From positions 1-30,004 of the IMG/VR virus record IMGVR_UViG_3300030328_000292: DNA of 30,004 nt. One strand, 5' to 3'. Under the pieces are notes generated by a model that ran no database searches, was not told the DNA's origin, and saw only the letters and a program-made list of their open reading frames with translations. Both the position numbers and the translations under genes were made by a program. This DNA is from a virus. Positions 1-7,462 of the stretch are shown one piece after another (positions within the stretch are counted from its first letter, which is position 1; every line of letters begins with the position of its first letter).

Positions 1-493
1 TTGCTAATGCTGTGACAATCACGTGCATATCCAAATCTCTAATTGCCTTACAGGCTCCTAGTAATTGTTGTGCGTGATTACCCCATATAGCAAATCCGTC
101 TGGGTTTTTTTTGCCTAGCTTCTCGGCAATTTCTGTTGCCTCCTGCTCTGCGTGTTTATAAGATAGGTCTGATAACTCAGTTAAACTATCTATGCCAATC
201 CATTTGTATCCTTGTTTCTTAAAGTCCTCTGACTTTATAAACTTAAAGATAGACTTAAAGGAATAAACTCCCTTGTCTTGGTTGACTTCTCCATCCCAAC
301 TCGTGAATGGTAGGTAATCTATCTTCGCTTGTCGAATGGAACTTAATCCACTCTCACCAGATAAGATAAATCCTTTTCCATATTCCTGTTGGAAATACTT
401 TAGTTGGGTTGTTTTACCCCAACCGTGATGTCCGTATAACAAAACCTTTCTTTTAGCAGTCTCATCATCGGAAGTGTTCATAGGTTTGAACAT
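1..493 (-). CDS. RecA/Sak4-like P-loop ATPase, partial (C-terminus outside window)
   Basis: The reading frame is open from an ATG at 493 down to the window edge, giving about 164 residues without a stop. A Walker A motif GHHGWGKTT lies near residues 21-29. A Walker B-like strand with IDSLTEL lies near residues 101-107, where D102 would coordinate magnesium. This matches the phage AAA_24/Sak4 type of RecA-like ATPases, which act in single-strand annealing and recombination during phage DNA replication. AAGGAG sits 7 bases before the ATG. The start overlaps the TAA of the frame upstream (TAATG), so translation is probably coupled. Family assignment is from motifs only; a related phage P-loop ATPase is possible. 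Confidence 0.8.
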   Translation of the reverse strand, partial: MFKPMNTSDDETAKRKVLLYGHHGWGKTTQLKYFQQEYGKGFILSGESGLSSIRQAKIDYLPFTSWDGEVNQDKGVYSFKSIFKFIKSEDFKKQGYKWIGIDSLTELSDLSYKHAEQEATEIAEKLGKKNPDGFAIWGNHAQQLLGACKAIRDLDMHVIVTALA

Positions 494-660
494 TAGCTAC
501 TCCTTGTGATTTTAACAGATACAGGACCTGGCTTGATTGTCAACGCAGGTTCGACCGTGCCTTGTTCTGCTTTGGTTAGTTTTTGATAGGTACGTTTCTC
601 AACAGTTAGTCTGCGTTTAACGTGAGTTGGAAGAGGATGCTTACTAAAAATCTCCTCTAA
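493..660 (-). other. Open frame without a normal start, possible +1 frameshift extension of the nucleotidase
   Basis: In the frame +1 to the nucleotidase, an open stretch runs from just upstream of the nucleotidase stop (TAG, 646-644) to a TAA at 495-493. That TAA overlaps the start of the ATPase gene as TAATG, the same junction type used by true genes here. Past the TAG it encodes 50 residues rich in Lys and Arg. It has no ATG, GTG or TTG start near its beginning. The sequence AGAGGAGAT TTT TAG resembles the release factor 2 frameshift site: an SD-like stretch, a short spacer, a slippery codon, then a stop. Slippage on TTT T would fuse these residues to the nucleotidase. An ATT start or a miscounted T run could also explain it. 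Confidence 0.45.
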
Positions 661-1183
661 CTTTTTGTATTAATGTGATTGCTTTAGTTAGTTCATCCTC
701 TAGCTTAGTGATCTTATCTCTGTTAGCTTGCCATAGAATACCTAACCCACCTGCCTCTGTCCATCTCTTAACATTAGTGTGCTTGTCATCGACAAGGATG
801 TTAGGTGTACCATCTACTGTATGGGTAGCGTAGGTTTCTTTCTTGTGAGTGAAGACCAAGTAAGGTATCTTATCAGGCATAAGGTTATTCTTTTCTAACC
901 ACCTACGTTTCCAATAGGTACAGTTATCCCTGTCATTACGCAAAGGTGTAGAGCATATGCCCCAATCCAAATGAGGATATTTATATGTCAACTCTTTGAC
1001 ATGACCTACAAGAGGATACGTAGTGTCAAACATATCTAAGTGTCCAAAGAAACTTGTGTCTTTTAGTTGAGCAAGTGCGTCATCTATATCAGGGATATCT
1101 TTCCAATGTGTTACCTTGAATCTCTTCTCAAGTCCACCAAAGAAATCAGCTAACACACCATCCATATCTAAATATATTATCAT
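644..1183 (-). CDS. HAD-superfamily 5'(3')-deoxyribonucleotidase (NT5C type)
   Basis: The 179-residue protein starts with the HAD nucleophile motif DMDGVLAD (D6 nucleophile, D8 acid/base). It has a Ser/Thr motif II at ICSTP (residues 77-81), a Lys motif III near K114-K115 and an acidic pair VDD at 131-133 followed by a Gly-rich loop. This is the order seen in the NT5C family, which dephosphorylates deoxynucleoside monophosphates. In a phage it would tune nucleotide pools during replication. AAGGAG lies 7 bases before the ATG, inside the end of the methyltransferase gene, and the genes overlap by ATGA. Length is normal for the family. Its stop codon lies in a possible +1 frameshift context. 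Confidence 0.85.
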   Translation of the reverse strand: MIIYLDMDGVLADFFGGLEKRFKVTHWKDIPDIDDALAQLKDTSFFGHLDMFDTTYPLVGHVKELTYKYPHLDWGICSTPLRNDRDNCTYWKRRWLEKNNLMPDKIPYLVFTHKKETYATHTVDGTPNILVDDKHTNVKRWTEAGGLGILWQANRDKITKLEDELTKAITLIQKVRGDF

Positions 1184-2319
1184 CTCTTTACTCCTTTCAA
1201 TGCTTGGTATCCACAGCCACAGCCATCAAACAAACTGACAACAGTACCCAACTTATCCTGTGGTATGCCATTCAGTATGTGCTTGATCACATCTACTGTC
1301 CACCCATTACCGATCATCTTGTATCGCCTTGAATTACTTATTTCTTTCATAGGTTTAGTAAGACCATCAGCATCATGGTAGTCACCATACTTTGTGTAGT
1401 CATCAGGCATAGTCTGTAATCGTTCACACTCTTTTACTGTCAATGCTCTCCAATATAATTCATCTGTATTCACAGCAACATTATCTTTCCTTACTGTGGT
1501 AAGAGTATTAGTCTTGGTATCTTGACGCATCTCTAGTCTTTGTGTTGTAAGACCTGCCGTTTTCATCTTGTGATCTTGACGCACACCATCAACGATATAC
1601 CTACCTCGCCATGCACCACACACTACCTTCGGCATTCGCCAACCACCCTGCATGGTAGTCAAGGAAGGTGACTTGTGCTTACGATCATAGACACGCTTGA
1701 TGATATCATAACCCTTGAGATCAGCTTCACCAACCTGCCTACACTTTTGGTCATGGTTGAATACTAATTGTCTACGTGCTTTCTCAAAGTACATCTTCAT
1801 AGATCCACCCTTGAAATAGTTGGCATCAATACAGTATGCTTTCTCTCTGTCGGTCATGCTCTCATCCTCAAGGATATCCTCAAGGTTGATACCAAGATCA
1901 GGCAGATCATCATGGGGTATGTTAGTCCAATACAAACGCTTACGATTCTGTGCAGACACAGACGCAGAGTTATGTACTCTAGGTTCACAACCAAACTCAC
2001 GTGAGAATATGTCTTGATACTCCTTCTTCATAGGTGTTTCTTCCACAAGCCACCACTTAGGCTTCCACTTGTGGAACAGTTTGAAGAACTCTATCGTAGG
2101 CTTGGCTCTCTCGTCATTGAATGCAAGCTGATTACCTGCAAATGAGAACGGCTGACAAGGTACACCTGCTAGTAGCAGATCAATACCCTCTGTGTATCCT
2201 TGATACCATCTGTCTATGTCAAGTACATCACCCATCTGATATACGTCAGGGTGATTGTACTGTGACACAGCACTAGCATAGGGATCAATCTCACTTGCGA
2301 ATGCTGTTTGATATTTCAT
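1180..2319 (-). CDS. C5-cytosine DNA methyltransferase, circularly permuted
   Basis: The 379-residue enzyme transfers a methyl group from S-adenosylmethionine to cytosine C5. Motif II (ASEIDPYA) is at residues 8-15, motif IV (PCQ, catalytic C55) at 54-56, motif VI (VEET, in place of the usual ENV) at 92-95 and motif VIII (QNRKR) at 124-128. Then come a probable target recognition region, a motif IX-like LTVKECERLQ and motif X (MIGNG) at 335-339. Motif I, the AdoMet-binding loop SLFDGCGCG, is at 362-370, the extreme C-terminus, whereas in canonical enzymes it comes first. An in-frame stop shortly upstream of the ATG excludes an N-terminal copy. The gene starts in a TAATG overlap behind GAAAGGT and the repeat at 2344-2359. 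No restriction partner is visible. A role in masking phage DNA from host nucleases is inference. Confidence 0.92.
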   Translation of the reverse strand: MKYQTAFASEIDPYASAVSQYNHPDVYQMGDVLDIDRWYQGYTEGIDLLLAGVPCQPFSFAGNQLAFNDERAKPTIEFFKLFHKWKPKWWLVEETPMKKEYQDIFSREFGCEPRVHNSASVSAQNRKRLYWTNIPHDDLPDLGINLEDILEDESMTDREKAYCIDANYFKGGSMKMYFEKARRQLVFNHDQKCRQVGEADLKGYDIIKRVYDRKHKSPSLTTMQGGWRMPKVVCGAWRGRYIVDGVRQDHKMKTAGLTTQRLEMRQDTKTNTLTTVRKDNVAVNTDELYWRALTVKECERLQTMPDDYTKYGDYHDADGLTKPMKEISNSRRYKMIGNGWTVDVIKHILNGIPQDKLGTVVSLFDGCGCGYQALKGVKR

Positions 2320-2660
2320 TAGCCATTTACCTTTCTCTTAGACTGTCCGATGTCGGACACTTTATAAGTACCCTTATCAATTACGTTACCATACTTACGT
2401 ATGACAGAACCCTTATGGTTCTTCTGCAAGAATGCTACACGATACGCAACTCTCCAAAAGCTTTCATTCATTATGATAGCTATCTCTCTAATGGTATGAT
2501 CAACATAAGACTCCATTAGGATTGCGTCAATCGTAGCATAGTTATATGTAAATGGCTGTGCCTTTTTAAGGTGTGCCGTATGGTTGCTATAGTCTACGAT
2601 AGCTAACGCAGGGTTGTTCTCTTTAATTGTGTCTATATTTTTCTGTGTTGTATTTGTCAT
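2319..2660 (-). CDS. Hypothetical protein with possible helix-turn-helix
   Basis: 113 residues that I cannot assign to a named family. The central segment (about residues 50-80) combines TIREIAIIMN with FWRVAYRVAFLQ, a pattern like the second and recognition helices of small DNA-binding proteins, and the C-terminus is basic. AAGGAG precedes the ATG. The start overlaps the previous gene by ATGA and the end overlaps the methyltransferase start as TAATG, so all three are probably translated together. One copy of the 16-bp repeat lies inside its 3' end and encodes part of VSDIGQ. A regulatory role is a guess. Confidence 0.7.
   Translation of the reverse strand: MTNTTQKNIDTIKENNPALAIVDYSNHTAHLKKAQPFTYNYATIDAILMESYVDHTIREIAIIMNESFWRVAYRVAFLQKNHKGSVIRKYGNVIDKGTYKVSDIGQSKRKVNG
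2344..2359 (-). promoter_or_regulatory. Repeat site 1: TGTCCGA-N2-TCGGACA
   Basis: Perfect arms, read leftward as TGTCCGACATCGGACA. It lies inside the 3' end of the 113-residue gene, 24 bases before the methyltransferase start and ahead of GAAAGGT. This placement matches that of sites 2 and 3. Confidence 0.65.
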
Positions 2661-2914
2661 ATCAAATTCTCCTTATCATATAACTGTGCGTCTTGGGGTT
2701 GAAATATATAACCTAGATCACTAGGCTCGTCATCAATCTCGTACTCCTTTACGAAATCAAACTCTGTTTTAAGGTTAGGGTAGATTAGTTTTGCTAATTG
2801 CAACACATATTCCACTGCTTCCTTCCAATCTTTTACAGGTGTAGAGTTACTGTCTACAACCACCATAGATGGTTGCTTCTCTATGGATAGACCTATCTCA
2901 TAGTACATAGCCAT
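2657..2914 (-). CDS. Small acidic hypothetical protein
   Basis: 85 residues, not recognised. An upstream in-frame TTG would add seven residues, but the ATG at 2914 has AAGGAG six bases upstream and follows directly on the TAG of the preceding gene, so I prefer it. The protein is soluble and acidic, with a hydrophobic core segment around VEYVLQLAKLIYP. It sits in a tightly packed leftward operon with four-base overlaps on its downstream side. Confidence 0.7.
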   Translation of the reverse strand: MAMYYEIGLSIEKQPSMVVVDSNSTPVKDWKEAVEYVLQLAKLIYPNLKTEFDFVKEYEIDDEPSDLGYIFQPQDAQLYDKENLI

Positions 2915-2915
2915 G

Positions 2916-3035
2916 CTATCTCCTTCTCTTTGCAAGCGAGTCTATCTTAGCGACAAGCCAACCTGTTATGAAGCATGCATATCCAAATACACATGCACTA
3001 AAAAACCATACATAAATTTCGGGGATCTGTTCCAT
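2916..3035 (-). CDS. Single-pass membrane micro-protein (39 aa)
   Basis: ATG overlaps the TAA of the preceding gene (TAATG) and the frame ends with TAG two bases before the next gene. The 39-residue product has one hydrophobic segment (about residues 8-29, including WFFSACVFGYACFITGWLV) followed by a basic tail ending KRRR. The positive-inside rule puts its C-terminus in the cytoplasm. Function unknown. Support comes from its exact fit between neighbours and the clear membrane segment. Confidence 0.6.
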   Translation of the reverse strand: MEQIPEIYVWFFSACVFGYACFITGWLVAKIDSLAKRRR

Positions 3036-3199
3036 TAGCTCACCTCTTTCCAAAGTTTATCTAAACTTTCTTGTCCACTACCTGACATTCGCTCGTACTC
3101 CCAATACAAATCGTCAACTAACAACTGTACTTTTGTCATGCGTTTACGTTCTTCCATATATTTTTCTTGTAAATTTATTCGTTCAACTTCCAAAGTCAT
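3035..3199 (-). CDS. Small charged hypothetical protein (54 aa)
   Basis: AAAAGGAG lies upstream of the ATG at 3199. The ATG overlaps the stop of the previous gene as TAATG and the gene's own stop overlaps the next start in the same way. The product is helical and strongly charged, with many Glu, Lys and Arg and no membrane segment. Not recognised. Confidence 0.6.
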   Translation of the reverse strand: MTLEVERINLQEKYMEERKRMTKVQLLVDDLYWEYERMSGSGQESLDKLWKEVS

Positions 3200-3345
3200 T
3201 ATCCAAATCTCCTTTTGTTTTTACGTTCCTGTCTGTAGGCATTGCCATGCCTTGTCTTATCTCTGAGGTTAAGCTTCTTTTTCTGCTTGAACTTCTCAAA
3301 GTTCTTGACTTCGTAGTGCGTTACGTTTCTCTTTCGTTCTGTCAT
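3199..3345 (-). CDS. Small basic hypothetical protein (48 aa)
   Basis: The frame runs from an ATG behind AAGGAAAAGG to a TAA shared with the next start (TAATG). It overlaps the preceding gene by 50 bases in another frame. The product is very rich in Lys and Arg, with a KFKQKKKLNLRDK stretch, which suggests nucleic acid binding. Not recognised. The overlap lowers confidence, but the RBS and coupled stop favour a real gene. Confidence 0.5.
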   Translation of the reverse strand: MTERKRNVTHYEVKNFEKFKQKKKLNLRDKTRHGNAYRQERKNKRRFG

Positions 3346-3451
3346 AGCTACCTTTTCCTTTCTTAGGTTTAACAGTTTGCATTGGTTTGCGTAGCATCAG
3401 CATTGCCTTTGCTACAGGATTAATTCTTGTGATTGTAAGTTTCTTTTTCAT
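3296..3451 (-). CDS. Small basic phage protein (51 aa)
   Basis: ATG overlaps the TAA of the upstream Cys-rich gene (GTAATGA). The product has the layout NPVAKAM, then a Pro-rich middle, then KKGKGSYDR. I have seen this arrangement in short unannotated phage proteins, but I cannot name a family. Positive charge and small size suggest nucleic acid contact. It overlaps the next gene by 50 bases. Confidence 0.6.
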   Translation of the reverse strand: MKKKLTITRINPVAKAMLMLRKPMQTVKPKKGKGSYDRTKEKRNALRSQEL

Positions 3452-4185
3452 TACGCTACCCACTTCTTTCCTGTGCCATGTGCAGGTATGAGTATGGACT
3501 TGGCATTGATCTTCATGCCACTACATAACTTACACTTGTCACATGTAGTACGTCTACCTGCTTCCTCACTTGCAGGACAGAGTATCTCTTTATCTTTCAC
3601 CATAGATGTAAGGTGTCCTACTCTGAAAGTACGTTCACCTTTCGACCAAGCTTCACGTGCTTCGTCTAATGTGTCGGCACTACGCATACATATAGTAGGA
3701 TCGTAGTTTGCACCATGTGTCTTGGCTTGGTGGCTGTAGGCTGTATGTGCTTTAGCACTCTTGATCCACATCTTGTTGTTCCTCTTGGGTACACAAGCAG
3801 GATCACCATACATACCTAGTCGTACAGTTCTATCCTTTGTCATATCAACAAAGTCAGCAGTTTTTATACGTGGGTATTTACCTGCCTTGTATGTTTTCCA
3901 TATGCTAAGTATGGATAGCAACATGACATAGCAACCACGTTCATCAGCCGTAGCCCGATCCTCTCTGTCATGTGCTTTACCACGTAACTTACAATCTCCA
4001 CATATAGAATAGTCTTCACCATTCTTGTTGGCAGAGATAGGATCTATATCTGTACGTATGTACAATATCTGTATCATCTTGCTAGTCTTACTGTTATTAC
4101 TGTTCATCAATGCTATTGCTACGATAGGTTTTCCATCTAGCAAACTAGCACCTTCCCATAATACGTATCCACTTGGCTTAGTCAT
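3451..4185 (-). CDS. Conserved phage protein with Cys clusters
   Basis: 244 residues. It contains a first cysteine cluster (CGDCKLRG), a CYVML segment, an RLGMYGDPA motif, a YSHQ segment near the middle, and a C-terminal cluster CPASEEAG-TTCDKCKLCSG followed by IPAHG. This arrangement matches a family of unknown function found in many phages (I believe DUF7227-like). The Cys/His layout suggests a metal or iron-sulfur site, but no reaction can be named. The ATG is preceded by GAAAGGT and by a copy of the 16-bp repeat 21 bases upstream, so it may be controlled with the methyltransferase and the 81-residue protein. Confidence 0.75.
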   Translation of the reverse strand: MTKPSGYVLWEGASLLDGKPIVAIALMNSNNSKTSKMIQILYIRTDIDPISANKNGEDYSICGDCKLRGKAHDREDRATADERGCYVMLLSILSIWKTYKAGKYPRIKTADFVDMTKDRTVRLGMYGDPACVPKRNNKMWIKSAKAHTAYSHQAKTHGANYDPTICMRSADTLDEAREAWSKGERTFRVGHLTSMVKDKEILCPASEEAGRRTTCDKCKLCSGMKINAKSILIPAHGTGKKWVA

Positions 4186-4206
4186 CTTAATACCTTTCAG
4201 TTAAAG

Positions 4207-4222
4207 TGTCCGATGTCGGACA
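4207..4222 (-). promoter_or_regulatory. Repeat site 2: TGTCCGA-N2-TCGGACA
   Basis: Perfect 7-base arms around two central bases, 21 bases before the start of the Cys-rich gene and upstream of its GAAAGGT ribosome-binding sequence. In mRNA it could fold into a 6-bp stem with an ACAU loop. As DNA it could be a dimer operator. Confidence 0.7.
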
Positions 4223-4223
4223 G

Positions 4224-4469
4224 TTACCCCTCGTTGCCACAGAGGTTATCCCATTCAGCAGGTGTTACACCTGTCATAATGAATTCACGCTGATCAGCGT
4301 CAAGCGTAGGGAATACATCTTGTACGCATTCCTTGCCACCATAGTAGCGATCAAGCTTACCTTGTGTAGTAGGTAGCACCATCGAGTTCACATTACCTGT
4401 GAAGTCGGATGAGCGAGTGAGTTCTACCGAACCCTCTGATACATGAGTACAATTCCAATTAGTAAACAT
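4224..4469 (-). CDS. Small conserved phage protein (81 aa)
   Basis: 81 residues with a distinctive C-terminal half: VQDVFPTLDADQREFIMTGVT then PAEWDNL. I recognise this VQDvFP...REFiMTGvTpaEWD pattern from small unannotated phage proteins but know no function. GAAAGGT precedes the ATG and a perfect repeat copy lies 20 bases upstream of it. It is the first gene behind the internal promoter at 4536-4564. Confidence 0.7.
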   Translation of the reverse strand: MFTNWNCTHVSEGSVELTRSSDFTGNVNSMVLPTTQGKLDRYYGGKECVQDVFPTLDADQREFIMTGVTPAEWDNLCGNEG

Positions 4470-4489
4470 TTAAAAAACCTTTCATTAAG

Positions 4490-4505
4490 TGTCCGATGTC
4501 GGACA
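4490..4505 (-). promoter_or_regulatory. Repeat site 3: TGTCCGA-N2-TCGGACA
   Basis: Identical to sites 1, 2 and 5 in leftward orientation. It lies 20 bases before the ATG of the 81-residue protein and about 24-39 bases into the transcript predicted from the 4536-4564 promoter, so it could act as an RNA hairpin or as a downstream operator. Confidence 0.7.
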
Positions 4506-4535
4506 GTTTCAATTTACTTTTACTATAATACACTA

Positions 4536-4576
4536 GTTATATAACACTTTCATATATATTTCAAGTGTTATATAAC
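4536..4576 (-). promoter_or_regulatory. Leftward promoter inside a perfect 14-base inverted repeat
   Basis: Arms 4536-4549 and 4563-4576 are perfect reverse complements (AAGTGTTATATAAC and its complement) with a 13-base spacer. Read leftward, TTGAAA at 4564-4559, a 17-base spacer and TATAAC at 4541-4536 form a sigma70-type promoter embedded in the repeat. Its -35 and -10 elements overlap the two arms, so binding of a dimeric protein would block RNA polymerase. It would drive the gene at 4469 and those below it. No T tract follows, so it is not a terminator for the 63-residue gene. Confidence 0.6.
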
Positions 4577-4592
4577 GTGTATATAGTATGAT

Positions 4593-4784
4593 TTAATCTA
4601 GGTCTAAGACCCATTCTCCATCACGAAACCACGCTAGGTATTCTGTGCTGTCTGTGTTAGCGACTACCTTGATCGTAGGTACACCATCTAGACGCACTAC
4701 TTCTGTGACTGTGTACTCATCGTACCCATAGTCTGTGCCGTAGCCTGAGTTGATCTTATGACAAGTTACTTGCATTCCTTGCAT
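4593..4784 (-). CDS. Small acidic hypothetical protein (63 aa)
   Basis: AAGGAT lies before the ATG at 4784. The product looks like a small beta-rich domain (VTCHKINSG, YTVTEVVRL, TIKVVAN, WFRDGEWVLD) with an acidic tail. No family recognised. It follows the 219-residue gene by about 46 bases and ends just before the internal promoter. Confidence 0.6.
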   Translation of the reverse strand: MQGMQVTCHKINSGYGTDYGYDEYTVTEVVRLDGVPTIKVVANTDSTEYLAWFRDGEWVLDLD

Positions 4785-4830
4785 GATTTTATCCTTATAA
4801 AATTTAAGTTTCAGTTAAGTGATAAGTTAC

Positions 4831-5490
4831 CTAGAAAGGTAACTCATCAGCTTTTGTTAAAGTTCCTTGAACTTTCTTAGTTCCTTTATCTGTCTTGACC
4901 AAGATCTCTTGAAATTGATCTACAGGATCTTCTCCTGTTGCTAACTCTAAAGCCCAATCAGCGATATCACAAAGTGATTGATTGTTAACTTGTGACCACA
5001 GCTTTAAAGCTTGCATCAGAGATTGCTTGGTATTTCCAAGAGAAATCTGAGAGGTGTCGATTTCTTGTCCGACATCGGACTTTGCTTTAGTTTCTTGACT
5101 TGTTTCAGTTTCTTCAGAAACTTTAGCAGGTTTCTTTGATTTCTGCCAAGCTTTAAGTAAAGCACTTGGGTTTGTAAATCCTTTCTTGGAGGATTTGCTA
5201 AACTCTCTAAGTTCATCAATGTTATCGAAAATCTGTAAAGCTTCATTTAATCTCCTACGATCAATCGTACTGATTCCTGCTCTAGCTTTTTGATCTCTAC
5301 CGACAATCCCTTTTTCATTTGGGCTTTCAGCTCTAAGCTGTGCCATAACTCTGCCAAGTCTAAGATCAAATCCATTATCAGAGATGGATTTCTTGACATT
5401 GTTGGTCTGTGACCAAATTCTAGCAAGTGCCTTGCCTTCTTTTGAAAGATCAGAAATTGAAAGTGGTTTGAATGTGATTTGATTTTCCAT
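4831..5490 (-). CDS. First leftward gene, hypothetical protein (219 aa)
   Basis: Not recognised. Residues 1-115 form a charged, probably helical domain (LSKEGKALARIWSQ, then STIDRRRLNEALQIF). Next comes a Lys/Glu/Thr-rich linker, then a second helical segment around LMQALKLWSQVNNQSL. The end, KADELPF, is short and partly acidic with a terminal Pro-Phe like the tails that single-strand DNA-binding proteins use to recruit partners; that resemblance alone is weak. It is the promoter-proximal gene of the left arm, and an imperfect repeat site lies inside it. A role in early DNA metabolism or regulation is inferred from position only. Confidence 0.75.
   Translation of the reverse strand: MENQITFKPLSISDLSKEGKALARIWSQTNNVKKSISDNGFDLRLGRVMAQLRAESPNEKGIVGRDQKARAGISTIDRRRLNEALQIFDNIDELREFSKSSKKGFTNPSALLKAWQKSKKPAKVSEETETSQETKAKSDVGQEIDTSQISLGNTKQSLMQALKLWSQVNNQSLCDIADWALELATGEDPVDQFQEILVKTDKGTKKVQGTLTKADELPF
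5066..5081 (+). repeat. Repeat site 4, imperfect and inside a gene
   Basis: TGTCCGA-CA-TCGGACT on the plus strand: the same near-palindrome in opposite orientation to the other four, with one mismatch at the last base. It encodes part of SDVGQ in the 219-residue protein. It may be a weak internal site or an accident of the coding sequence. Confidence 0.45.
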
Positions 5491-5531
5491 AATCGGTTTT
5501 TCCTTTTTTAGTTTAGGTTTTCTTTTTATAA

Positions 5532-5580
5532 GAGATTTATAATATATCTCTCACAAATAAGTGAGATATATTTAAATCTC
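5532..5580 (-). promoter_or_regulatory. Long imperfect inverted repeat in the leftward 5' leader
   Basis: Arms GAGATTT...ATATCTCTCAC and GTGAGATATATTTAAATCTC flank an AAATAA loop, with a few gaps. It begins at about +1 of the leftward promoter, so the RNA would start with a stem-loop of some 20 pairs. It could stabilise the 5' end, attenuate transcription, or be a DNA operator. Confidence 0.5.
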
Positions 5581-5586
5581 GTTAAA

Positions 5587-5615
5587 AAGATAACCCTAAA
5601 CTATTTGGTTGTCAA
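5587..5615 (-). promoter_or_regulatory. Leftward sigma70-type promoter
   Basis: Read leftward: TTGACA at 5615-5610, 17 bases, TATCTT at 5592-5587. It points at the 219-residue gene, about 90 bases before its start. TAACACTT abuts the -35, as at the 4536-4564 promoter. Repeat site 5 lies about 30 bases upstream. Confidence 0.7.
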
Positions 5616-5644
5616 GTGTTAGTTTTGTTCTGTGTTTGTTCTAG

Positions 5645-5660
5645 TGTCCGATGTCGGACA
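5645..5660 (-). promoter_or_regulatory. Repeat site 5, upstream of the leftward promoter
   Basis: Perfect TGTCCGA-N2-TCGGACA copy in the same leftward orientation as sites 1-3. It lies upstream of the -35 box, where an activator, or a repressor acting by looping, could bind. It is not in the transcript from that promoter, which argues that the family is not purely an RNA signal. Confidence 0.65.
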
Positions 5661-6013
5661 GGGTTATGGTGCATCGGCAACTACAAATCGGTACTGTTTT
5701 GGTAGTGTTGCTAATCGGTGAAACTCAGAGGATGGTAACTGATGTGATAACAGTTTACCTTGTGTGCTTATGTGCCTTATTTTATTGATCTTTAGTGTGT
5801 ATTGGGTGAGTGATTACGTATCATGTGTATTCACCATGCAAGTATGCACTACATATATGCCTATACAAGTGCTTGATCGAGGGTGTGGGCGAGAGCCACC
5901 CCACATGCGTACGTTATTATATACATAAATATACACAGATTAGTAAAATCCAATGTTAACCACTTAGAGTATGCATAAAGAGCTGCACACCTAGCCTATG
6001 TCAAATTAATTAC

Positions 6014-6042
6014 TTGACACCCCTTTTGAGTTGTGGTATAAT
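6014..6042 (+). promoter_or_regulatory. Rightward promoter with perfect sigma70 consensus
   Basis: TTGACA at 6014-6019, exactly 17 bases, TATAAT at 6037-6042. Both boxes match the bacterial housekeeping consensus. It is the only evident promoter ahead of the whole right arm, so host RNA polymerase would start there. A promoter this strong usually needs a repressor or a timing control. Confidence 0.85.
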
Positions 6043-6070
6043 TATATAGAAACATAAACGAACGGCACAC

Positions 6071-6110
6071 TTTAAGTGTTATTCACCTAATATATAAATA
6101 ACACTTTAAA
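6071..6110 (+). promoter_or_regulatory. Inverted repeat in the rightward leader
   Basis: AAGTGTTATT (6074-6083) and AATAACACTT (6097-6106) are perfect complements with a 13-base spacer, starting about 22 bases after the predicted RNA start. The half-site AAGTGTTAT is the one found at the 4536-4576 promoter, which also has a 13-base spacer, though the arms there are in the opposite order. It could be a shared operator or an mRNA stem-loop. Confidence 0.55.
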
Positions 6111-6148
6111 TGAATATCATCCGTATAAAATAAAAATAAGTATTGACA

Positions 6149-6355
6149 ATGGCAAAGAAATCCGTAAAACTATATACAGACAATGTTATCGAAGCATTCT
6201 ATGATGCTATCCGTACTAACAGTCTACATAAACTCCACATACCTCACAGTGATGTCTTCTACGTACGAAAGGCAGTAGAGGCTCACTATGGTAGGTCTTT
6301 TTCACTTAAAGAAGTGGAAGAAGCAATGATCGCTGAAGGGTGGTCGGGTAATTAA
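6149..6355 (+). CDS. First rightward gene, small hypothetical protein (68 aa)
   Basis: An upstream TTG at 6143 is in frame, but the ATG at 6149 gives a normal start (MAKKSVK). No strong SD sequence is visible. The product has a basic N-terminus and a compact helical remainder (VFYVRKAVEAHYGRSFS, then LKEVEEAMIAEGW) like small phage proteins of unknown role. Its place directly after the strongest promoter suggests it acts first in the right arm, possibly as a regulator. No motif proves this. Confidence 0.65.
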   Translation: MAKKSVKLYTDNVIEAFYDAIRTNSLHKLHIPHSDVFYVRKAVEAHYGRSFSLKEVEEAMIAEGWSGN

Positions 6356-6373
6356 AGTAAAGGAACTTTAAAT

Positions 6374-7462
6374 ATGGCAAGAGATTACAGTAGTAATAAA
6401 TATAAAGATAAGGTTAAAAAGATACAGCAGCAAAAAAGAACTGCTGCACTAAAGAGAAAATCCGTAGCTGATCTTAAACGAGAAGTAAAATCAAATAAAA
6501 AGATTGAAAGTGCTAATCGTACCAAGAAAGCAAACAAAGAATTTGGGGAGAGAGTCAACGCAATTCTAGATTTGTTTAAGCCTAAGAAGAAAGCTAGACC
6601 CGGTGTACGATCAGGAATACAAACAGGTAAGCCCCCTGTAGGTAGAGGAAAGTTTGGAAGCTCTACTACATCATCAGCTAAACTTACATCGAAAGCAGGA
6701 AGAGATCCTGCCAAAACCTTAACAAATGCACAACGTGCGTCTATGGCTCGTATTGGTAGTGTATCAGATACGATACCTATGGATCTAACAGGTACAGCTA
6801 GACGTAAGAAGTTATCGAAGCTTGCTGAAACACGTGCAATGGCAGAAGCTAGGATAAGCGGCGGCAAGAGTAAAAGAAGACCACCTCAAGGTGGAAGTGG
6901 AGGACCATCGGCAAGCACAGATCGTGCAGGACCTAAGGGCTATAGAAAAAGAAAAGATAGACCTGCTTATGGTGGTTACGTGTTAGATAGTACTAAACCT
7001 AAGAGAAGACCACCTCAAAGTGGTAGTGGAGGACCATCATCAAATAAAAGACCACCTCAAAGTGGTAGTGGACCAAAAGCTAAACCAAAAGAACTACCTA
7101 CAGGCGTAGGTGGCGATAAGGCTCTACCAAGACTTAAATCGTATACAATTAAGAAGGGCGATACTTTAACAGCTATTGCAAAAGCAAATGGTACAACTGT
7201 AGCTATGCTTAAAAAGGCTAATAATATTAAAGATGCCGATAAAATACGAACAGGTCAGAAGATTAAGATCTATAAAGATAAGGATTGGATGAAGAAGGAA
7301 GTCAAACCCTTTCTAGCTGATAGGCCACGTACAATAGCCCAAGCACAGAAAATGGGGAAGAAATACTTCTACGATAAAAACGGCAAGCGTAAGGCAGCCG
7401 TAACTGCAGAGCAGCTCAAGAAGTCAGGTCTTACCTTGTCTCAATGGCTTAAAAAGAAATAG
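6374..7462 (+). CDS. Basic LysM-containing protein, probable virion or lysis-related
   Basis: 362 residues, very rich in Lys and Arg. Residues 1-160 are a charged, poorly ordered region. Residues 165-235 hold three copies of a Pro/Gly motif (RRPPQ-GSGGPS, RRPPQ-GSGGPS, KRPPQSGSG). Residues 256-300 form a LysM domain (YTIKKGDTLTAIAKANG through GQKIKIY), which binds peptidoglycan. The C-terminus has YFYDKNGKRKAAVT and LTLSQWLKKK, a pattern I associate with marine phage virion proteins. No catalytic domain is seen. It may be a virion protein that touches the cell wall during entry, or an accessory to lysis. TAAAGGAAC precedes the ATG. Confidence 0.75.
   Translation: MARDYSSNKYKDKVKKIQQQKRTAALKRKSVADLKREVKSNKKIESANRTKKANKEFGERVNAILDLFKPKKKARPGVRSGIQTGKPPVGRGKFGSSTTSSAKLTSKAGRDPAKTLTNAQRASMARIGSVSDTIPMDLTGTARRKKLSKLAETRAMAEARISGGKSKRRPPQGGSGGPSASTDRAGPKGYRKRKDRPAYGGYVLDSTKPKRRPPQSGSGGPSSNKRPPQSGSGPKAKPKELPTGVGGDKALPRLKSYTIKKGDTLTAIAKANGTTVAMLKKANNIKDADKIRTGQKIKIYKDKDWMKKEVKPFLADRPRTIAQAQKMGKKYFYDKNGKRKAAVTAEQLKKSGLTLSQWLKKK

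Follow-up and report, generated by a model that had tools for sequence, protein, structure and literature searches.

Five copies of one near-palindrome lie in the early arm of a marine phage genome fragment, three of them shortly ahead of start codons, an arrangement that raises the question of which protein, of phage or host, reads them and whether it does so on DNA or on RNA. The fragment (IMG/VR record IMGVR_UViG_3300030328_000292, positions 1 to 30,004; hereafter, the window) contains the early arm, on the left, and the greater part of the structural arm of an HMO-2011-type podovirus, as assigned from its terminase, which is 78% identical to those of Roseobacter phage CRP-1 and Puniceispirillum phage HMO-2011. 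Phages of this type are among the most abundant marine phage groups. Phage records queried with the early-region DNA gave no match.

A repeated palindrome in the early arm

The sequence TGTCCGATGTCGGACA (TGTCCGA-N2-TCGGACA), which reads TGTCCGACATCGGACA on the minus (coding) strand, occurs four times without a mismatch, and a fifth copy, TGTCCGACATCGGACT on the plus strand, deviates from it at a single outer position (Table 1). The sequence-only reading had listed these same five sites, with none in the right arm, and a mismatch scan of the 30,004 bases bore it out: no further copy was found with up to three mismatches, and all five lie in the early arm, within 2344-5660. Five or more copies were present in none of 100 dinucleotide shuffles (mean, 0.54 copies), and the set in the window is not due to chance. 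The repeated architecture of the leaders was likewise confirmed, with the reported spacings and a shared GAAAGGT between site and start at all three genes, as was the location of the copy at 5645, which ends 29 nt upstream of the −35 element of a predicted promoter, TTGACA-N17-TATCTT; a relative (L014) has TTGACG-N17-TATCTT at the same distance. Overlooked at that stage was that two copies are intragenic, the one at 5066 within the open reading frame for the 219-aa protein and the one at 2344 within the 3' end of that for the 113-aa protein. Both are read in the same frame, xx-TCC-GAY-RTC-GGA-CA, and encode the peptide SD[I/V]GQ. The description of the copy at 5066 as inverted holds for the central TG/CA pair only and has no meaning for the arms, which are palindromic.

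Table 1. Sites, putative targets, and candidate reader in the early arm of the window
Feature	Position	Strand	Basis or remark
C5-cytosine DNA methyltransferase, putative target	1180..2319	-	PF00145
113-aa protein, 3' end encodes the 2344 site	2319..2660	-	found in some site-bearing phages only
Palindromic site, 24 nt before methyltransferase start (2319)	2344..2359	-	kept in L123 before the homologous gene
244-aa Cys-rich protein, putative target, function unknown	3451..4185	-	PHROG 2554
Palindromic site, 21 nt before start of the 244-aa Cys-rich protein (4185)	4207..4222	-	same place in L014, L099
81-aa early protein, putative target, function unknown	4224..4469	-	PHROG 20898
Palindromic site, 20 nt before start of the 81-aa protein (4469)	4490..4505	-	same place in L014, L099, L026, L065, L022, L005
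First early gene product (219 aa), candidate reader of the sites	4831..5490	-	homology, structure model, co-switching
Site inside the 219-aa gene, coding for KSDVGQ in the linker	5066..5081	-	one mismatch; linker pLDDT <50
Leftward early operon promoter (predicted), TTGACA-N17-TATCTT	5587..5615	-	sigma-70-like
Palindromic site in the divergent intergenic region	5645..5660	-	154 nt before the 219-aa start

On the other side of the divergent region, a near-consensus promoter (TTGACA-N17-TATAAT, 6014-6043) precedes a rightward operon that opens with a protein of ~70 aa (6149-6355), strongly conserved in the group and without a PHROG or Pfam match. The leader of this gene contains an inverted repeat of its own, AAGTGTTATT ... 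AATAACACTT (6073-6112).

Conservation and placement of the sites among relatives

IMG/VR was scanned for exact matches to the 14 specified bases of the palindrome, which gave 119 stretches; at least 23 of the loci were relatives of the window phage, and in most of these, several near-sites surrounded early genes homologous to those of the window. Loci were also fetched by the 219-aa protein alone, so as not to select on the site, and at least two GTCC-N6-GGAC sites were present in all 80, with a total of 404 against ~5 expected. A chance reading of the sites is disfavored. In a second set, fetched by the neighboring 70-aa protein, 32 loci contained both the 219-aa family and at least two sites, and 44 contained neither, the latter number being an upper bound given that some contigs are too short to include the early region. 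In the four exceptions, the protein is present but canonical sites number fewer than two; three loci spell the site GTCCCAA, and the fourth is cut off by the contig end.

In nine further records searched over their entire length, matches fell in the early region, except for a codon run in the integrase gene and a copy in gp30 of CRP-345. Isolates CRP-1 and CRP-345 carry GTCCAA-N2-TTGGAC, and HMO-2011 carries AGTCCG-ACAG-CGGACT at comparable places; the window palindrome is absent from CRP-2, CRP-603, CRP-207, CRP-9, and CRP-13, and an HMM search of the stretches fetched from these five phages detected no member of the 219-aa family. More generally, HMO-2011-type genomes without the 219-aa protein also lack the window palindrome; many of them have another perfect palindrome at equivalent places, together with diverged first-gene products. 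The number of copies per genome ranges from 4 to 10, in gene leaders. Apart from the integrase and gp30 matches, the sites are confined to the early region in the window and in the nine records rather than randomly distributed, and they recur ahead of homologous genes (in L123, L014, L099, and others), the two outcomes on which the sequence-only reading had staked its proposal. The integrase copy, GTCCAAGGTTGGAC (at 6868 in CRP-1, 7079 in CRP-345, 23196 in the L157 record, and others), was rejected as an operator: its AA spelling persists unchanged in the L157 record, a GTCCGA-type genome, which points to what is probably a conserved codon run mimicking the site.

The distribution among phages also bears on the possibility that the copies are operators of a host transcription factor. 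Dimeric regulators of bacteria typically have palindromic sites of about this size, but CRP-1 has the sites, whereas CRP-2, CRP-9, and CRP-13, which infect the same host, FZCC0023, have none, and the version of the site switches together with a phage protein (see below). We consider this possibility already contradicted and give it next to no credence.

The position of the sites is tied to genes. A start codon preceded by a Shine-Dalgarno sequence lies 10-29 nt from 57% of 235 unique downstream sites, compared with 9% of random positions, and the upstream copy is separated from the first early gene by 111-460 nt, usually about 220-300 nt. Symmetric AAA...TTT flanks extend the palindrome. The downstream copies are polar in both the center (165:38) and the outer bases (126:3), and the intragenic copies are polar as well (center, 58:5); the upstream copies show no polarity, and a per-genome reversal between upstream and downstream sites was not significant (25 vs. 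23; 17 vs. 11). Dispersed palindromes with a dedicated binding protein are also compatible with ParB/parS-like systems, in which a ParB- or initiator-like protein would use the sites as a centromere or origin, for partition or replication, with gene control being secondary. However, the sites are tied to translation starts and spread, unclustered, over several kilobases, and no ParB-type domain was detected, so a role of this kind appears very unlikely.

Concerted change of the sites and the 219-aa protein

The sites come in two versions, GTCCGA/TCGGAC and GTCCAA/TTGGAC, and the copies of one genome change together. Of 349 unique contexts, 109 had G..C and 240 had A..T as the fifth base pair of both arms, and none was a hybrid. 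A single version was found in 123 loci and both versions in seven; in the latter (for instance, L016), GTCCGA and GTCCAA sites occur together without any hybrid site, and these genomes may have been caught midway between specificities. The intragenic copy, initially taken for an imperfect outlier, behaves in this comparison as a conserved intragenic operator: it matches the majority version of its locus in 114 of 116 loci, and the switch turns the encoded SDVGQ into SNVGQ, a D-to-N change. Because the linker that contains this peptide is predicted to be disordered (pLDDT <50 at residues 123-145), the constraint is one on the nucleic acid.

Symmetric changes would also keep the pairing of an RNA hairpin, with the palindrome forming a 5-7 bp stem in the leader, either bound by the 219-aa protein or serving as a processing or stability element, and acting on translation or decay. 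In many leaders, the sites closely precede the Shine-Dalgarno sequence on its 5' side, and this, like the coding-strand polarity of the downstream copies, is in line with such a structure. However, the arms within a genome are identical, with no compensatory variety between copies, and the would-be loop varies and is found in both orientations (ACA, TGT, ACT, and AGT in L240 alone). The outer pair in leaders is C..A in 116 cases and the wobble-pairing T..G in only 2. In addition, the copy at 5645 is located upstream of the predicted promoter and hence outside the predicted transcript, and no Rfam match was obtained for window positions 1-6500. Given the invariant arms, variable centers, outer C..A, and location of the upstream copy, we favor a DNA dimer site, as the sequence-only reading had done, and leave the hairpin a small but real share of probability.

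The candidate reader of the site is the product of the first early gene, a 219-aa protein modeled as a helical N-terminal domain (residues 11-120, including helix 108-119), the disordered linker, and a C-terminal helical hairpin. On a tree of 89 nonredundant proteins of the family, built with the tested columns and the linker left out, the site version changes 16 times. Counted over 11 independent, supported pairs with unlike versions of the site, residue 109 (S in GTCCGA-type and T in GTCCAA-type loci) scored 9.2 concordant and 0 opposite, K113 scored 8.1 and 0, and a non-basic residue at 116 scored 8.0 and 0.3. Position 139, the codon of which is part of the site itself, served as a built-in positive control; with this position set aside, the strongest of 185 columns were 109, 113, 116, and 117, which fall within about 100 degrees of one face of the predicted helix 108-119. 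In the same scan, no column of the 70-aa neighbor protein, used as a control, exceeded 3. Because residues on one helix face co-switch with the base pair of the site, unlike in the control, the site is very probably read by the first early protein itself, a correlation that no binding experiment yet backs. Helix 108-119 is likely its recognition helix, and binding is most likely by DNA-binding dimers, both inferred without binding data. Exchange of modules can move a gene and its sites together but would not single out one helix face.

Two other proteins were considered and rejected as the factor. The 70-aa protein remains at least 83% identical across the listed loci despite wholly different sites and has no co-switching column, and the 113-aa protein is absent from HMO-2011 and many site-bearing genomes. 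The initial proposal that one factor controls the methyltransferase, the Cys-rich protein, and the 81-residue protein together thus gains a shared set of sites and, through co-switching, a candidate in the 219-aa product, but co-regulation remains without experimental proof.

Searches of Pfam and PHROG with the 219-aa protein gave no match, and comparison of its modeled N-terminal domain with the PDB revealed no significant fold match and no recognized helix-turn-helix (HTH). One strong viral fold match was obtained, S4S2E1 (205 aa, E = 1.2e-5), which has the length of HMO-2011 gp74 and may be that protein. The protein ends in DELPF, reminiscent of the acidic tip at the C terminus of single-stranded DNA-binding proteins; this ending is common to L014 and absent from most homologs.

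Proposed control of the early genes and its parallels

Starting from what the sequences establish, namely the site set, its conservation and concerted change, the association with the protein, and the co-switching of residues and bases, the explanation that we consider best, and hold with good though not full confidence, is that a phage-encoded early regulon has these copies as its operators and the 219-aa product as the protein that binds them, with repression proposed to occur through a stoperator-like block. The protein would bind the palindromes in DNA, probably in dimeric form and with a recognition helix for each half-site TGTCCGA, and would control its own gene through the upstream and intragenic sites as well as the early genes in whose leaders a site closely precedes the Shine-Dalgarno sequence. 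Once bound, it would stop RNA polymerase on the early operon near each gene start, in the manner of a stoperator, so that the early genes would be turned off with increasing amounts of the protein, or in the lysogenic state. Action on DNA rather than RNA, dimer binding, self-control, repression, and the roadblock are all inferred, in the absence of binding or expression data. Simple promoter occlusion does not fit, because the site in the window is not in the promoter core, and the polarity of the downstream and intragenic copies is not explained by a symmetric dimer alone.

The same protein might instead activate the early genes from leader-proximal promoters. In the window lineage, the left flank of the site is often TTGAAA-like, with a spacing of 17 to the right flank, but the latter, CTTTAA, is a poor −10 element, and the TTGAAA flank is absent in other lineages. 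Leader promoters of the form TTGAAA-N17-CTTTAA were rejected on these grounds, and activation seems to us improbable, although not negligible.

Whether early repression would serve lysogeny or the lytic cycle is a separate matter. A relative, CRP-3, integrates experimentally into tRNA-Met (PMC6918029), and by analogy lysogeny is possible in the group. No relative of the 219-aa protein was found in 84,980 species genomes; a prophage role is therefore without direct support, and early shutoff in the lytic cycle is at least as likely.

The closest functional parallel is provided by the operators and stoperators of Cluster A mycobacteriophages (L5, Bxb1, TipsytheTRex), which are bound by the immunity repressor (PMC6550527, PMC9283540). 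In common with these, the sites are many, dispersed, and mostly not at promoters, and their lineage-specific spelling tracks a phage protein. Stoperators are polar relative to transcription (PMC9283540, PMC6550527); here, polarity in the center and outer bases is seen in the downstream and intragenic copies but not in the upstream ones. Stoperators of the L5 type are 13-bp, asymmetric, and monomer-bound, whereas the window-type sites are near-perfect palindromes in all copies, adjoin the Shine-Dalgarno sequence, are confined to the early arm, and include one copy inside the gene of their own candidate reader. The immunity repressor has an N-terminal HTH plus a stoperator domain; the 219-aa protein has no detected relationship to it, and searches with it yielded no Pfam, PHROG, or significant PDB match of any kind. 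The functional pattern is most like that of stoperators, judging by analogy, yet the sites lack a defining feature of these, an asymmetric sequence bound by a monomer.

Two other systems share only parts of the pattern. SPBRE of SPbeta is a 15-bp element bound by the master repressor MrpR (PMC10516654), with about ten dispersed copies read by one phage protein, as is inferred here. However, SPBRE lies in promoter regions, whereas the present sites are in leaders and inside genes, most of them 10-29 nt before starts, and MrpR has a tyrosine-recombinase fold, whereas our candidate is a small helical protein, the modeled N-terminal domain of which gave no match to that fold (absence of a match being no proof). 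The SAS/ESAS repeats of Cluster K mycobacteriophages (PMC3203893) mark the translation starts of some of the genes; as here, inverted repeats stand upstream, and the version varies from one subcluster to another. The SAS element itself is asymmetric and 13 bp long, its 17-bp inverted repeats are imperfect with spacers of 4-13 bp, and it has no known binding protein; in contrast, the present palindromes are perfect over 14-16 bp, have spacers of 0-4, and come with a candidate protein. A start-associated asymmetric 13-mer is not the conserved element here; instead, the palindrome stands upstream of an ordinary Shine-Dalgarno sequence. We place the sites with the dispersed operators, as a variant with a putative binding protein that is undescribed, and the HMO-2011-type papers searched contain no description of them.

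A de novo search in relatives without the 219-aa family uncovered other recurrent perfect palindromes, namely TGTCTGA-N3, TGTCACA-N2, TGTCACT-N1, TGTCCCAA-N1, TGTAGCA-N2, GTGGTA-N2, TGTCAA-N3, TGTCAC-N3, and TTTTAC-N2, mostly in 6-10 copies (3 for TTTTAC) and, in many cases, immediately ahead of the Shine-Dalgarno sequence. In L240, L272, L229, L256, L260, L275, L280, L290, and others, the region upstream of the 70-aa gene has a palindrome particular to the lineage in its early gene leaders, with different arm sequences and spacer lengths. Several of the first-gene products are linked to one another and, more weakly, to the 219-aa family (phmmer or HMM); the 219-aa HMM detected those of L290 (3.9e-5) and L229 (0.0055), with no link for L240, and the model of the L290 protein has the same layout as the 219-aa protein (helical N-terminal domain, disordered linker, C-terminal helices). 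In some HMO-2011-type loci, no such palindrome was found. We raise only tentatively, at a little short of even chances, the wider reading that the DNA-binding early regulators of HMO-2011-type phages form a family that is undescribed and diversifies fast, and that every lineage has a perfect palindrome of its own before many early genes, the spellings GTCCGA, GTCCAA, and GTCCCAA included.

The comparison names a candidate protein, helix, residues, and target sites, which opens binding specificity and its evolution to tests with a few synthetic genes and oligonucleotides, without culturing a host. The arrangement is of interest in itself, in that a regulatory site is written into the disordered linker of its putative reader, and a change of the code alters the sequence of the protein. 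The papers searched on HMO-2011-type phages describe neither a repressor nor an early regulator, an absence that is conspicuous given that integrases are common in the group and that CRP-3 integrates (PMC6918029). If the wider reading is true, the many mutually blind specificity groups would represent the missing immunity or early-shutoff system of these abundant marine phages.
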